Source: an uncultured Pelagibacteraceae bacterium
Lineage (GTDB): Bacteria; Pseudomonadota; Alphaproteobacteria; Pelagibacterales; Pelagibacteraceae
DNA length: 64,000 nt
NCBI GenBank assembly: GCA_902580275.1
Contig: CACHJZ010000002.1
Location: forward strand, 168,334-232,333
Reading direction: 5' to 3'
A program made the position numbers and the translations under genes. Below, one piece after another: positions 41,015 through 47,613 of this stretch (position 1 is its first letter; each line of letters opens with the position of its first letter). The notes beneath the pieces were generated by a model. It was given only the letters and a program-made list of their open reading frames with translations. It did not search any database and was not told where the DNA came from.

Positions 41015-41284
41015 TTAAATTTTAACTTTCTCAGATCTTAATAATCTGATCTTTTGCCTGATTCCTCCTGATCCAGAGTAGCCACCAAGGCCTCCATCTG
41101 ATCTAATTACTCTATGGCAAGGGATTTTAGGGGCGTAAGGGTTTTTTGCACACGCATTTGCTACCGCTCGTGCTGCTTTAGGCATTTTAATGGCTTTTGC
41201 CAACTGTTTATAAGTTATGACTTTACCTTTAGGTATTGTTTTGAGGTACTTCCAAACTTTAATTTGAAATTGAGTTCCTTTCAT
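41015..41284 (-). CDS. ogt: Methylated-DNA-[protein]-cysteine S-methyltransferase, catalytic domain only
   Basis: About 89 aa from the ATG at 41284; the track start at 41323 is a TTG within an RNA hairpin. Contains the DNA-binding helix (KVWKYLKTIPKGKVITYKQLAKAI, AARAVANACAKNP) and the active site IPCHRVIRSDGGLGGYSGSG. The methyl-accepting cysteine is present, so this is not an alkyltransferase-like (WHR) protein. It lacks the N-terminal domain of E. coli Ogt and Ada. AGGGG eight bases before the ATG is a good Shine-Dalgarno. It repairs O6-alkylguanine by a suicide reaction. Confidence 0.88.
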   Translation of the reverse strand: MKGTQFQIKVWKYLKTIPKGKVITYKQLAKAIKMPKAARAVANACAKNPYAPKIPCHRVIRSDGGLGGYSGSGGIRQKIRLLRSEKVKI

Positions 41285-41295
41285 AAGAAAAACCC

Positions 41296-41470
41296 CTGTT
41301 TCCTTGCACTTTTTACGGTGCAAAGAACAGTAAGTTTTGGCACGTCGTTGTAGGCGCTACCGCCATGCCTCCCGCTTCACGATTTTAGCGCTACTCCGCG
41401 AAGCTTTCTGCCCCCTGGGCTTGGTCCTCTCGGCCTTTCCCCAGTTGGCCAGTTAAGAGTTGCCTCTTAA
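41296..41470 (-). ncRNA. Candidate structured RNA, GC-rich, upstream of ogt
   Basis: About 175 nt, roughly 55-60% G+C in a genome near 30%. On the minus strand it folds into five visible stems: TTAAGAG-GCAA-CTCTTAA (GNRA loop), CTGGG/CCCAG around 41415-41444, GCTTCGCG/CGTGAAGC (41374-41404), GGCAT/GTGCC enclosing GGCG-GTAG-CGCC (41339-41369), and a 13-bp hairpin CTGTT/AACAG plus CTTTGCAC/GTGCAAGG (41296-41330). Three of the stems contain G-U pairs on the minus strand that would be A-C mismatches on the plus strand. This, with the GNRA loop, fixes the orientation. I could not match it to RNase P, SRP, 6S, tmRNA or a known riboswitch. It could be a free RNA or an ogt leader. Confidence 0.6.
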
Positions 41471-41477
41471 TTAAGCT

Positions 41478-41506
41478 CTTATAACATTCAGAATTAGTTG
41501 TATTAA
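41478..41506 (-). promoter_or_regulatory. Candidate promoter of the structured RNA
   Basis: Read on the minus strand, TTAATA (-35, weak) and TATAAG (-10, 5 of 6 to consensus) are spaced by 17 bp. The predicted start, about 7 nt downstream at 41471, coincides with the first base of the first RNA stem. The coincidence is what makes the site credible; the -35 box alone is poor. Confidence 0.4.
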
Positions 41507-41562
41507 TCACTTTTTGATTGTTTTTTAATTTTTTTTAACAGCAGTGGATAATGGGGATAATT

Positions 41563-41749: not shown

Positions 41750-41778
41750 TTGACATTAGAAATGCGTTATATTATATT
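41750..41778 (+). promoter_or_regulatory. Promoter of the integrase gene
   Basis: Consensus TTGACA at 41750-41755, a 17-bp spacer, then TATATT at 41773-41778. The -10 box overlaps the left arm of an 11-bp inverted repeat by three bases, and the ATG of the recombinase is 31 bp past the -10. It is one of the best sigma70-type promoters in the window. Confidence 0.7.
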
Positions 41779-41804
41779 TCCGATAATTAATGGTTATCGG
41801 AAAT
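41776..41804. repeat. 11-bp perfect inverted repeat at the integrase start
   Basis: ATTTCCGATAA, a 7-base spacer TTAATGG, then TTATCGGAAAT. The arms are perfectly complementary over 11 bp and lie between the -10 box and the start codon (41809). The layout, two inverted arms around a 7-bp centre, fits either an autoregulatory operator or a tyrosine-recombinase core site, where crossover regions are typically 6-8 bp. I saw no second full copy in the window. Confidence 0.65.
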
Positions 41805-41808
41805 AATT

Positions 41809-42723
41809 ATGAGTGAATTAGTAACTGACATAAAAAGTTTAGAAATTGAAACATTAAAAAATTTAAAAAATTCTAAAGCTCAAAACACGTTAAGAGCTTA
41901 CCAGGCTGATTTTAAAGACTTTTCAAGTTTTTGTGCTAAGAATGGCTTTAAGTCATTACCAACAGAGCCAAAGATAATAGCTTTATACCTCACCCATTTA
42001 AGCTCATTCTCGAAATTTAGTACTTTAAAAAGAAGAATAGCATCTATCAAAGTAGTTCATAAATTAAAAGGGCATTACATTGACGCTAAACATCCAATTA
42101 TTACTGAAAATATTATGGGTATTAAAAGAAAATTGGGAGTTAAACAAACATCTAAAAAACCTATATTAATCAATGATTTAAAAAATATAATTAATGTAAT
42201 AGATCAAGAAAAGAATGAAATTAAGAAATATCAAAACAAAGCTATGATATTAATTGGCTTCGCTGGAGGCTTTAGAAGATCTGAACTTGTATCGATTGAA
42301 TATGAAGATATAGATTTTGTATCTGAAGGAGTCAAAATAACAGTAACAAAATCAAAAACAGACCAAACAGGTATAGGGTTAACAAAGGCTATCCCCTACT
42401 TTGAAAACAAAACCTACTGCCCTGTAATATCATTAAGAAAATGGATAGAATATTCAAATATAAATATTGGTAAAATATTTAAAGTGTCGGATAAAACAGT
42501 AGCACTTACTATTAAAAAATACGCTTTAATGGCAGGATTAGATAACAGTAAGTACGCAGGTCATAGTTTAAGATCAGGATTTGCAACATCGACTGCGGAA
42601 ATAGGTGCAGATGAAAGAAGTATAATGGCAATGACAGGACATAAATCTACACAAATGGTAAGAAGGTATATTCAGGAAGCAAATTTGTTTAAAAACAATG
42701 CATTAAATAAGTTAAAAATTTAA
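41809..42723 (+). CDS. Tyrosine recombinase/integrase
   Basis: 304 aa phage-integrase-family recombinase. The N-terminal SAM-like core-binding domain spans about 15-110 (NTLRAYQADFKDFSSFC). The catalytic domain follows: first arginine in GFAGGFRRSELVSI (about 154), lysine in VTKSKTDQTG, the HxxR box HSLRSGFATS (about 257), GHKSTQMV and the nucleophile tyrosine in RRYIQEA. All catalytic residues are present, so it should be active. It is shorter than P4-type integrases and has no arm-binding domain, which is closer to XerC/D and plasmid resolvase types. Its stop touches the stop of the convergent GT11 gene. Confidence 0.9.
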   Translation: MSELVTDIKSLEIETLKNLKNSKAQNTLRAYQADFKDFSSFCAKNGFKSLPTEPKIIALYLTHLSSFSKFSTLKRRIASIKVVHKLKGHYIDAKHPIITENIMGIKRKLGVKQTSKKPILINDLKNIINVIDQEKNEIKKYQNKAMILIGFAGGFRRSELVSIEYEDIDFVSEGVKITVTKSKTDQTGIGLTKAIPYFENKTYCPVISLRKWIEYSNINIGKIFKVSDKTVALTIKKYALMAGLDNSKYAGHSLRSGFATSTAEIGADERSIMAMTGHKSTQMVRRYIQEANLFKNNALNKLKI

Positions 42724-43653
42724 TTATATAGACATCCAATCATCTGGCCAAAAATTCTTATTGTTTGAGGGATTGAGATTTGATGGACGGATACAAATTT
42801 TATTTGGATTATTATTTAACCAAGCCCCCCACCAATGAAATGAAGAAGGTCCTACAATAAAATGCTTGCAATATCTAAATAAATTGAAATCATTGATAAC
42901 GTTATTATTAACTATAGTATATTTGTTAATCTTTAACTTGCTCAGTACATTATTAATATCAATGTGATCATTGCACCATATAAAATATTCAGGATTAGAA
43001 ACTTTTGACTCGATGAAATCAATAGAATTATTTATATAATTAATAATATTTTCAACAAATATATCAGATTTTTGAATATTTACGCTTGTTTTTAATTTAT
43101 GTTGATCTGAAAATCTATTTCTTCGAATGTGTAAAGATATTGAATTTGAGTTTTTAATTCTATCAATAAAAGTATTAGATTTCTGGATTAATTCATTTTT
43201 TGGAGTGAATATTTTACATAAATCATCTTTATATTCAAAGAAATATTTATGATTTTCAAAATTACCTTGTATATATAAACTATCAGAAACCTTGGATTTA
43301 TCTAAATTAATAAATTCTTGAACTATTTTCTTATTTTCTATCCTAATTTGTTTTTCAATTAAAAATTTTTTTTTCTTTAAAAAAATATCAAAAAATAATT
43401 TAAATTTTTTTTGGAATAATTTGAATGGAGTATCATAAATCAAATTATCAGGTGCTATATTATTCGTAATATTAAAATTATTAAGCATATAAAACTGATG
43501 ATTTCTTAATAAATTTTTATTTCTTGAATAACCGCTTTTATTATCAATATACAAATTATAGTTTAGTTTCTTTGATAATGAATATGCAAAAGCATACATG
43601 AATAATTGGTTTCCTAAACCTTCAGAAATTTGGATAATTAATTTTTTTTTCAT
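42724..43653 (-). CDS. GT11 family glycosyltransferase (alpha-1,2-fucosyltransferase-like)
   Basis: 309 aa. N-terminal GDP-sugar binding start LIIQISEGLGNQLFMYAFAY, then SISLHIRRNRFSD (the HxRRxD-type motif of GT11, slightly altered) and FIVGPSSFHWWGAWLNNN. Family members add L-fucose in alpha-1,2 linkage to galactose. The donor and acceptor here are not certain. Likely decorates a surface polysaccharide. Its start overlaps the stop of the GT2 gene by 4 bp. Confidence 0.82.
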   Translation of the reverse strand: MKKKLIIQISEGLGNQLFMYAFAYSLSKKLNYNLYIDNKSGYSRNKNLLRNHQFYMLNNFNITNNIAPDNLIYDTPFKLFQKKFKLFFDIFLKKKKFLIEKQIRIENKKIVQEFINLDKSKVSDSLYIQGNFENHKYFFEYKDDLCKIFTPKNELIQKSNTFIDRIKNSNSISLHIRRNRFSDQHKLKTSVNIQKSDIFVENIINYINNSIDFIESKVSNPEYFIWCNDHIDINNVLSKLKINKYTIVNNNVINDFNLFRYCKHFIVGPSSFHWWGAWLNNNPNKICIRPSNLNPSNNKNFWPDDWMSI

Positions 43654-44516
43654 TTAATATACTTAGCAATCAAATATTTGATATTGCTAATAAAATAATC
43701 AAAATAATAACTTAAATTTTTAATAGGTTCTACTAATGGACCGCTATATAACTCCCCTCTTCTTAGAAAATGTGTAGTAAAAAAATCTACCGAAAATTTC
43801 CATTTTAATAAAAAAGTTTTCTTACCATTATTTGGTAAAACACTTGCGTTTTTTCTAGTTGTTACAGATCCAAAATGATAAAGTCTTGATTTTGATACAC
43901 TTTTGAAAATTCTATTCCCTTCGACCCAAAGTTTCATATTAAGATCGGGATCTGATGCAAATCCAGGATTAAATTCCTCACTGAAGCCACCTACCTTTTC
44001 CCATAAATCTTTTGGAATAAGATGTGGCGCCCAATGACTACCTTGAAGATCTTTAAATTCAAAAGTATTATAATTTTTAAGTAATTTTTCTTCATTAAAA
44101 TTTTCAAATGTATCTCCACAATCAAACTGAATATGTTGTATACTGCCATTAACAGGACCCATAGGGGCTAATTGTGTCATTGAAAGGTAAAATTTATTAC
44201 TATTTATTGAAGTCATTTCTTCGACTAAGGCATCATCCCAATTAGGTAAGAAATACATATCATCATGCGAATATAAAATGTAACTTTTAGAGCTTAATTT
44301 ATAGGCAGTGTTGACACCACTGCAAAGACCAATATTTTCATATGATTTAGAATGTATGATACTCTCATTTATAAGATAATTTTCTGTTTCGTTGTCTTCA
44401 CCATTTAAATGAACAATTATTTCATGATTAAATGATGAATTTTTTTTAATAGAATCTATAGTTAATTTACAGTATTTGTAATTATTATGACTTGGTATAA
44501 TGATTGAAAATTCCAT
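43650..44516 (-). CDS. GT2 family glycosyltransferase
   Basis: 288 aa, GT-A fold. Starts FSIIIPSHNNYKYCKLTIDSI. The metal-binding DxD equivalent is LYSHDDMYFLPNW (about 93), and FNPGFASDPDLNMKLWVEG (about 205) holds the ED-like catalytic acids. No membrane helix is evident. Part of the surface-polysaccharide cassette; acceptor unknown. Confidence 0.8.
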   Translation of the reverse strand: MEFSIIIPSHNNYKYCKLTIDSIKKNSSFNHEIIVHLNGEDNETENYLINESIIHSKSYENIGLCSGVNTAYKLSSKSYILYSHDDMYFLPNWDDALVEEMTSINSNKFYLSMTQLAPMGPVNGSIQHIQFDCGDTFENFNEEKLLKNYNTFEFKDLQGSHWAPHLIPKDLWEKVGGFSEEFNPGFASDPDLNMKLWVEGNRIFKSVSKSRLYHFGSVTTRKNASVLPNNGKKTFLLKWKFSVDFFTTHFLRRGELYSGPLVEPIKNLSYYFDYFISNIKYLIAKYIK

Positions 44517-44551
44517 GGAAACAATCCTAAAACAATAAATATTACAATTTT

Positions 44552-45538
44552 ATGTCCAAAAATACTAAAAAAATCGATACTGCTTTAATTGGTTGTGGTT
44601 ATTGGGGTACCAATATAGCAAAATCACTAATTACAATTAAAAAGACTATTTATGTTTTCGATGAGAATCACAATAACTGCAAAATTTTAAAAAAAAGATT
44701 TCCTAATTATATAAATATTGAGAAAAATCTGTCGAATATTCTTGTTAATAAAAAAATTAAAAACATAATTTTAGCTACCCCTCCAAGTAAAAACTTTAAA
44801 TTACTTAAAATATTTATAAATAATGAAAAAAATATATTTATTGAAAAACCAGGTCTTAAAAATTTAAAAGATATTGATTATTTTAAAAAATTAAAAAACA
44901 AAAAAATACTCATGTTTGGATATATTTATATGTTTAATAACTATATTAAATTTATAAAAAAATTTGTTTCAAATAAAAAGAATGGAAAAATATTATATTT
45001 AAAGTTTCAAAGACAAAATTTAGGACCTATAAGAAATGATGTAAGTGTTTCATATGATTTATCTTCTCATGATTTAAGTATATTATATTATTTTATTGGA
45101 GATTTACCAAAAAATCTTTCTGAAAAAAGCTATTCTATTTTAAAAAAAAAACTCCCTGATATATCTAATATTAGTGCTAAGTATAAAAATATTTACATAG
45201 ATATACATAATAGCTGGCTAAACCCGGATAAAGTAAGACGTATTACAGTTGTAACTAAAAAAAAAATGTTACTGTTTGATGAAATGAAAACAGATAATAA
45301 AATCGTTATATATAATAAATACGCAGTGTATCCAAAAATCTCTGAATTTAATAATAAGTTTTTCAACCAGAAAGCAAAAATATATTTTGGAAAAAACTAT
45401 TCACCAAGAATTAAATCTAACAACCCTCTTTTAGATGAGCTTAAATATTTCTTTAAATGTATTAAAAAAAATAATAAACCATTCACAAATATTGATTTTG
45501 CTGAAAAAATTTTAAAAAGTTTAGACAAACTTTATTAA
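44552..45538 (+). CDS. Gfo/Idh/MocA family oxidoreductase
   Basis: 328 aa. NAD(P)-binding TALIGCGYWGTNIAKSL at the N-terminus and the catalytic lysine motif FIEKPGLKNL (about 96). Family members oxidise or reduce sugars; within a glycan cassette a role in making a nucleotide sugar such as a 3-oxo or amino sugar precursor is plausible. It is the only + strand gene in the cassette, and its last bases overlap the convergent double glycosyltransferase. Confidence 0.82.
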   Translation: MSKNTKKIDTALIGCGYWGTNIAKSLITIKKTIYVFDENHNNCKILKKRFPNYINIEKNLSNILVNKKIKNIILATPPSKNFKLLKIFINNEKNIFIEKPGLKNLKDIDYFKKLKNKKILMFGYIYMFNNYIKFIKKFVSNKKNGKILYLKFQRQNLGPIRNDVSVSYDLSSHDLSILYYFIGDLPKNLSEKSYSILKKKLPDISNISAKYKNIYIDIHNSWLNPDKVRRITVVTKKKMLLFDEMKTDNKIVIYNKYAVYPKISEFNNKFFNQKAKIYFGKNYSPRIKSNNPLLDELKYFFKCIKKNNKPFTNIDFAEKILKSLDKLY

Positions 45539-47613
45539 AATGTATTTTCAATTATATTTTTTGTAATTATTTTATTGTTAAAAAGTTTGAAATATTTTAT
45601 TTTGCCATTTTTACCATATTCATTAATTTTTTTTGGATTACTAAGCATGTATTCAATCTTATTTCCTAAATCATTTAAATTTTTATAAAAACCAACTTCA
45701 TTTTCATTAAAATAATACTTAAATTTAGTCTTTTCATCTATAAAAGTATAAATTCCATTTCCGATTAGGGCAGCTATTCTGTTACTTGATGTATACTTAA
45801 GTGGTTTACCCCTGCTTAGATTGAGAGACATTTTACATTTTATTAATTCATTATAAAAATTATAATTCCATTTTGGTAACTCATTTGATATGCCCAAAAT
45901 ATTATATTTAATATTTGGGTATTGAAACATTAATTGGTTTATAAAACTTTCCCTTTCATCACTCTTACCTTTTTTTAGTTTGCCAAAATTTACACCATGA
46001 CTCAGTGCAAAAAATAAATCTTTATATCTGTTTTTATAATTGTAGATTTTTAAATTTTCTATATTAGGATCGACTGGTATTGGTAAATAATTTAATTTTT
46101 TTCTATCTATACTTGTTGATATTTCATCCGGATGTGTTGTTAAATAATATTGATCAATTAATTCTGAGTTTTTTTCAATCAAATTTAGGTTTTTTCTCCA
46201 ATTAGGACCCTCCCCTTTATGTCCTAGAGCGTCTTCGTACCACAATATTATTTTTGAATTATATTTTGATCTAATTTCAGACAATGTATCGTTTTCTAAA
46301 ATATTATTATGCCCTAGAACGATTAAATTAGGACGGTAATTTTCTACAATATTGCTTACTTTATTATTAATTATCTTATTATTTTTAGTTAAAAAATTTT
46401 TAGATAAATAATTACGATAACTGAAATTTATTACATCATGATTGTTTCTGATAAGTCCTTTAGAAATTTTGTTGGCTATAGATATATTGAATAAACGATG
46501 GTCACTCCTTTCATCAAAAGTAGATATGTGTAATACTTTTAAATTTACTCCTCTATTATAATTGAATTTCGGGCTTAGAAAGAAATATTTTAAATTATCA
46601 ATTTTTTTAACATGATCAGAAATGTTATGAATAACATTTTTCCAATTTTTTCTCTGAATTTTTTTTCTTAATAATTCATTTTTGATTAATTTTTCAATAA
46701 TATTTGAAAGTTCATGATGATTTATTTTGTTTATAAATAATGTATTATCGAAAGTTTCAGGTAAACCACCTCTTTTAGAGGTAATAGTTGCACACCCAAA
46801 AGCTGCGGATTCCATTGCTGTTCTACCAAATGGTTCTTGCCATCGCGAAGGAACAACGGAAATTGATGATTTTTTATAATAATTTAATATTTTAGCGTGT
46901 GTAACCCAATCAAGAATTTGAAAACGATTATGTTTAAAATTAAATTTTTCACGTGGTTCATTGCCAATTGCTAACGCCTTCCAGTCAGTAAACTTATCTA
47001 AAATTTTTATTACTGATTTGCCATATGTGTCAAAACCTTTAGAAGAGTTTAATTTACCTGTAAAAATAATTAATTTTTCTTTTTTGGGAAATTTTTTAAT
47101 AGGGCTAATAGCAGGATATAAAATATCACAGTTATTTCTATGCTTATAAGGTAAACCTTCAAAAAATTTGTTTTTAACCCAATTGCTAACAAAATAAATT
47201 TGATCTGTATTTTCAGCAATAAAGATTCTTTCATTTATTGATGATGACGATCTTAAATCTTGAGGATTATTATGATAAATGAATATAAGTTTTGATTTTA
47301 CTTTTTTTTTAATTAAATAAAGCAATGACTCTGGTCTATTATGAATTTCAATTATTTTAAAATTGTACTTTAGATATTCTTTATATAACTTGTCAGTATA
47401 AGAAATATTTTTTTTAACAAAGGAATTACCCAATTTAAGATTTTTAAAATTTTTAAGTAACGGTTTTGAGTTATCACTGAGATACCCATACACAGTAGAT
47501 CTACTTTTTAAACTACTTTTGTTTAAATAATCTTTTACCCAGATAGATGCAGCTCCAGCATTGTTTTCGGTAAAGTTTTCTTTATATGGTAATAAGATTG
47601 CGATATCTTTCAT
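45535..47613 (-). CDS. Large protein with two glycosyltransferase-like domains (GT4 plus CgeB-like)
   Basis: 692 aa. Residues 1-340 look like a GT4 enzyme: IFTGKLNSSKGFDTYG, then RWQEPFGRTAMESAAFGCA and SKRGGLPETF. Residues from about 352 (VLHISTFDERSDHRLFNI) resemble a second GT-B unit ending in a CgeB/Glyco_trans_1_2-like part (LIKCKMSLNLSRG, SNRIAALIGNG). A fusion of two transferases could build two successive linkages. Starts with a 4-bp overlap of the acyltransferase gene. Confidence 0.75.
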   Translation of the reverse strand: MKDIAILLPYKENFTENNAGAASIWVKDYLNKSSLKSRSTVYGYLSDNSKPLLKNFKNLKLGNSFVKKNISYTDKLYKEYLKYNFKIIEIHNRPESLLYLIKKKVKSKLIFIYHNNPQDLRSSSSINERIFIAENTDQIYFVSNWVKNKFFEGLPYKHRNNCDILYPAISPIKKFPKKEKLIIFTGKLNSSKGFDTYGKSVIKILDKFTDWKALAIGNEPREKFNFKHNRFQILDWVTHAKILNYYKKSSISVVPSRWQEPFGRTAMESAAFGCATITSKRGGLPETFDNTLFINKINHHELSNIIEKLIKNELLRKKIQRKNWKNVIHNISDHVKKIDNLKYFFLSPKFNYNRGVNLKVLHISTFDERSDHRLFNISIANKISKGLIRNNHDVINFSYRNYLSKNFLTKNNKIINNKVSNIVENYRPNLIVLGHNNILENDTLSEIRSKYNSKIILWYEDALGHKGEGPNWRKNLNLIEKNSELIDQYYLTTHPDEISTSIDRKKLNYLPIPVDPNIENLKIYNYKNRYKDLFFALSHGVNFGKLKKGKSDERESFINQLMFQYPNIKYNILGISNELPKWNYNFYNELIKCKMSLNLSRGKPLKYTSSNRIAALIGNGIYTFIDEKTKFKYYFNENEVGFYKNLNDLGNKIEYMLSNPKKINEYGKNGKIKYFKLFNNKIITKNIIENTF

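Follow-up and report, generated by a model that had tools for sequence, protein, structure and literature searches.

The IMES-2 RNA is described as an abundant marine transcript. To our knowledge it is an orphan RNA family of ocean bacteria, recovered from seawater sequence, and we know of no function for it; the motif is said to have been described by Weinberg et al. in 2009 from marine metagenomes. IMES-1 (RF02034) is named alongside it in one marine series. Among other described RNAs, 6S RNA (RF00013) is likewise free-standing, structured and equipped with its own promoter, but has a different fold. The protein-sequestering CsrB/RsmY RNAs would resemble IMES-2, a compact, multi-hairpin and putatively trans-acting RNA, only in their way of working, and IMES-2 has no obvious series of GGA loops.

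The window, that is, the whole stretch of 64,000 nt analysed here, contains on its minus strand a GC-rich block that the first-pass annotation had put forward as a possible undescribed structured RNA. The Rfam scan proposed there identified it instead as a known family: RF02035 (IMES-2) matches 41337-41477(-) at full length, 1-141, with 158.5 bits (E 1.1e-41), all helices being matched and the RNA itself showing no difference from the family. Since this score lies far above the cut-off of 54.7, the block belongs to a described family, and we consider its identity as the IMES-2 gene of a SAR11 genome virtually certain. Besides tRNAs, IMES-2 is the sole Rfam match in the window, and no other covariance model matched within 41200-41560 at E<=1. 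Neither IMES-1 nor 6S RNA emerged as an alternative identity: IMES-1 had no match in 16 SAR11 genomes, in a search in which no control genome matched either, and 6S RNA had none in 101 relatives, with the Caulobacter control matched. Beyond the known family, the present analysis adds the hosts, three loci, the promoter unit, a proposed kissing helix and divergent copies in one genus (g5). A description of the loop-loop helix or of the upstream tandem DnaA-box-like motifs was not found in literature other than the family's original paper.

The GC content peaks at 0.63 at 41350-41449, compared with about 0.2-0.28 for most noncoding flanks. The minus strand of 41288-41477 folds with -73.1 kcal/mol (z = -4.28; 0 of 200 shuffles equally good), whereas the plus strand folds more weakly (z = -2.10). 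The GC-rich block, its bounds and its strand are as first annotated. The successive stems with a GNRA hairpin were also recovered, as four hairpins plus a terminator hairpin, the first two hairpins carrying the GNRA tetraloops GCAA and GAGA. The features of the RNA gene are as follows.

41337-41477, minus strand: IMES-2 RNA (Rfam RF02035), full length 1-141
41453-41470, minus strand: hairpin 1, GCAA tetraloop; pairing holds in 99.6% of cells across 67 distinct sequences
41408-41452, minus strand: hairpin 2, a stem of two parts with an internal loop, capped by a GAGA tetraloop; 9 pairs changed on both sides (helices 2 and 3)
41374-41404, minus strand: hairpin 3; compensatory changes in 8 of 8 pairs
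41386-41391, minus strand: GCGCUA in loop 3, the 5' strand of the putative kissing helix, pairing with 41354-41359
41339-41369, minus strand: hairpin 4; compensatory changes in 5 of 9 pairs
41354-41359, minus strand: UAGCGC in loop 4, the 3' strand of the putative kissing helix, pairing with 41386-41391
41288-41330, minus strand: intrinsic terminator, predicted from sequence and fold; hairpin 41297-41330, then GGGGUUUUU

Homologues of the RNA covary, as the first-pass annotation would have them do. Across 67 distinct sequences from relatives, 94.3% of the cells in the consensus helices are paired, and compensatory changes occur in 28 of 45 pairs, a number that none of 500 shuffles reaches but that, like all such covariation counts, is inflated by relatedness. 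As judged from the alignment, support for the nested helices is very strong. Furthermore, loops 3 and 4 are complementary to each other in the same sequences, with 96.3% of cells paired and compensatory changes in 3 of 6 pairs; when the loop 4 partner is slid by 1-3 columns, pairing drops to <=55%, these measures again being inflated by the relatedness of the sequences. The variants GCGCUA/UAGCGC, GUACUA/UAGUAC, GCACUA/UAGUGC and UCGCUG/UAGCGA illustrate the matching changes. Two further measures do not rise above shuffles: 41 of 500 shuffles reach the count of pairs changed on both sides, and 407 of 500 reach that of further pair types. From its sequence pattern, the loop 3-loop 4 kissing helix thus appears well supported but not proven, and it would draw hairpins 3 and 4 together into a compact fold. 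Homodimerization via loop 3 is disfavoured, because variants such as GCACUA, UCGCUG and GUGCUA break self-pairing yet largely keep the loop 3-loop 4 pairing.

Upstream of the RNA, four elements on the same strand make up its control region.

41478-41486, minus strand: extended -10 element TG-T-TATAAG, its position kept as TGnTAnnnT across an alignment of 68 upstream regions
41500-41520, minus strand: conserved promoter block CAATCAAAAAGTGATTAATAC (consensus CAACnA...AGTGATAC), containing AGTGAT
41543-41551, minus strand: DnaA-box-like motif TTATCCACT; 52 of 68 upstream regions match TTATCCACA within 1 mismatch
41552-41560, minus strand: DnaA-box-like motif TTATCCCCA, in tandem with the motif at 41543-41551; second box in 53 of 68

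The TATAAG promoter already annotated for this RNA stands: the -10 hexamer at 41478-41483 is preceded by TG, and its position is kept in relatives. By analogy, transcription probably begins some 6 nt downstream of the first annotated base. Within the promoter block, GTGAT is near invariant in the 68 sequences and lies 38-41 nt before the modelled start of IMES-2. Matches to TTATCCACA with no, <=1 and <=2 mismatches occur in 12, 52 and 68 of the 68 upstream sequences, compared with 0.1, 2.4 and 25 expected from shuffles of single bases; the counts are not independent, because many of the sequences are related and because the first box at the mnmA site described below seems to overlap the end of mnmA. 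The second box follows about 10 bp on, and the spacing between the boxes and the AGTGAT block is maintained. The conservation of the boxes across different chromosomal addresses is a stronger point than the counts. That DnaA or the replication state tunes IMES-2 transcription is possible on this pattern, with the balance tilting somewhat against it, and the boxes could serve another factor instead. A role of the boxes as replication origin was rejected: in one genome (G108) the RNA is located close to the maximum of cumulative skew, that is, the terminus, and in another (G101) some 170 kb separate it from the minimum. When the promoter block was sought in 13 genomes without the RNA, the one match fell in coding sequence as judged by eye, in a search that missed some true copies.

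All named host records among the matches listed are titled Pelagibacteraceae, Pelagibacterales or Pelagibacter. Within an order-wide sample, the Rfam model matches 80 of 197 genomes, each with a single copy, and 75 of the 149 genomes of good quality; a model rebuilt from 67 sequences matches 77 of these 149, two of them by chance in coding sequence. As about half of the good-quality SAR11 genomes are without it, the lineage does not depend on IMES-2. When 385 genomes were sampled across the class, matches appeared only in the window's own genome and in two SAR11 relatives of another genus (G101, G104), whose divergent copies score 62-69 bits, the range of the divergent g5 copies. The rebuilt model also added five weak matches (17-25 bits) as candidates for divergent copies in genomes taken to lack the RNA. 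These were rejected: four are coding sequence by eye (a rpoA/rplQ-like junction, an efflux-like gene), and the fifth (E 0.032), from a genome in which a true copy is already present, was put down to chance. A sub-threshold match (57.4 versus 67 bits) to another SAR11 RNA, SAR11_0636, was seen at L134:8461-8551.

In the window, IMES-2 lies between two genes.

41015-41284, minus strand: ogt-type gene with a methylated-DNA cysteine methyltransferase domain, 89 aa, outside the RNA gene (PF01035 116.7 bits, TIGR00589 101.5 bits)
41809-42723, plus strand: Xer-like tyrosine recombinase gene, outside the RNA gene (PF00589 74.5 bits; best NCBIfam model TIGR02225 XerD, 76 bits, below cut-off)

The same arrangement, with the RNA between ogt and the divergently transcribed recombinase gene, was found at all 21 loci compared in genus g1. 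In genera g8 and g9 the RNA is located between mnmA and a membrane-protein-like gene, and in genus g5 it follows a nuclease gene (names by eye from translations). Among 120 named loci, the recombinase/ogt arrangement accounts for about 84 and the mnmA arrangement for 35, with 1 odd locus. The three sites are unrelated, and the promoter block accompanies the RNA at each of them. Genomes without IMES-2 retain the recombinase gene and ogt but miss the entire unit of about 275 bp; in an alignment of close relatives, the first DnaA-like box and the terminator mark the two ends of what is missing between a small ORF and ogt. In the RNA-less loci L139-L146, the gap between recombinase gene and ogt holds varying small genes, by eye acetyltransferase-like ones and small membrane proteins. 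At L178:267-408, IMES-2 is fused within hairpin 3 to recombinase coding sequence, which is probably a chimera of single-cell amplification.

Because genomes either have the whole unit or lack it, and because it lies at three chromosomal sites, IMES-2 most likely acts in trans, and we judge it very likely that the gene is autonomous. The three options of the first-pass annotation therefore part ways here: the free sRNA survives, while the ogt attenuator and the mobile-element RNA are not supported. Sequence and comparison show that tandem DnaA-box-like motifs, the AGTGATAC block with the extended -10 element, a four-hairpin RNA of about 140 nt and a terminator form a self-contained unit. We regard as probable an overall explanation in which this unit would encode a trans-acting, protein-binding RNA. 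The rigid, strongly conserved and mostly paired IMES-2 would bind a protein as decoy or scaffold, by analogy with 6S and CsrB, and DnaA or the replication state would tune its transcription, so that expression would run in step with replication. For the mode of action taken by itself, protein binding rather than Hfq-dependent antisense pairing is our first choice, tentatively and at a little under an even chance, because the conserved loop bases seem to be engaged in tertiary pairing and the fold has been held over long evolutionary distances. The complete scheme of a replication-coupled regulator, with DnaA on the tandem boxes and an RNA stabilized by the kissing helix sequestering a protein in a growth or cell-cycle role, is improbable as a whole; if true, IMES-2 would fill that role in SAR11 cells whose genomes yielded neither an Hfq nor a 6S RNA match. 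The analysis places IMES-2, as a single-copy, optional and self-contained gene, in a group that ranks among the most abundant bacteria of the ocean. Its defined promoter, candidate tertiary contact and DnaA-like sites make its function testable, and close relatives with and without the RNA offer a ready natural comparison.

Our second choice, itself unlikely, is an Hfq-independent antisense sRNA that would repress mRNAs via its conserved loops or linkers. A transcription unit that is autonomous and terminated, and in which unpaired stretches are conserved, suits such a role, but the most conserved loop bases are occupied by the proposed loop 3-loop 4 helix, and the copies in genus g8 are without a terminal U-run. 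Moreover, Hfq was detected in none of 24 SAR11 genomes (TIGR02383; the Caulobacter control matched), a search that a very divergent Hfq could escape. Still more doubtful is a functional replacement of 6S RNA that would bind RNA polymerase. The missing 6S matches in the relatives speak for it, whereas the four short hairpins do not resemble a single long hairpin with a central bubble, and neither RNA was detected in about half of the SAR11 genomes.

A cis-acting leader or attenuator, in which transcripts from the RNA promoter read through the terminator and so set ogt expression, is very unlikely. The terminator itself was correctly annotated: the hairpin at 41297-41330 is directly trailed by GGGGTTTTT, and it was found in both ogt-linked and nuclease-linked copies. 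The ogt ATG (41284) begins 3 nt past the T-run, and the Shine-Dalgarno sequence claimed to follow the hairpin does not exist as a separate element, the only AGGA sitting in the 3' arm of the hairpin. Since the T-run stops a few bases short of the ogt start in nearly all loci of genus g1, some ogt mRNA may stem from read-through. However, the association is not constant, as RNA and promoter adjoin mnmA or a nuclease gene without ogt in other SAR11 genera (35 of 120 named loci), and the conservation of IMES-2 far exceeds the needs of a terminator. Genomes without the RNA keep the recombinase gene and ogt and lack the whole unit, so IMES-2 is a free-standing RNA gene and adjoins the repair gene ogt by location only.

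The neighbouring recombinase gene, annotated at first as an integrase, was sought in 25 SAR11 genomes and found in 24 of them, from four genera, with or without IMES-2. Just upstream of its start codon lies a further feature.

41775-41805, no strand assigned: dif-like site, a perfect inverted repeat of 12 bp around a 7-bp spacer

In each of the 17 genomes searched the dif-like core adjoins xer, without mismatch in 16 and with one mismatch in G104, and elsewhere in these genomes only two one-mismatch copies occur. In both of the genomes sampled for cumulative GC skew, from two SAR11 genera, the gene sits at the skew maximum, the expected terminus. Recombinase and site probably constitute a resident, single-recombinase, Xer/dif-like locus for chromosome-dimer resolution. 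XerH/difH and XerS/difSL are single-recombinase systems (PMC3025954), and the SAR11 locus would likewise pair a lone recombinase and a dif-like site, both at the terminus; the likeness concerns the neighbour of IMES-2 only, in a different lineage. An RNA component of a mobile element, favoured by the patchy distribution of IMES-2 and its position between xer and ogt in genus g1, can be practically dismissed, because the 'integrase' looks like the cell's own Xer at a unique dif-like site and the terminus, the RNA lies away from xer in other genera, and IMES-2 had no match in phages or plasmids. A single match in a viral contig was a chance coding match.

A species history could not be read from the recombinase tree, which is poorly resolved and mixes genera, so that gains and losses of IMES-2 are indistinguishable. 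Within this tree, near-identical recombinases occur with and without IMES-2 (G032, G121). From the sequences compared, recent gain, loss or exchange at the recombinase/ogt site is suggested. A sigma-70-like promoter match at 41750-41778 overlaps the dif-like site, an arrangement that would allow self-repression. Beyond the recombinase gene, the region 42724-47613, which adjoins the putative terminus, is rich in glycosyltransferase genes and varies in gene content between relatives.
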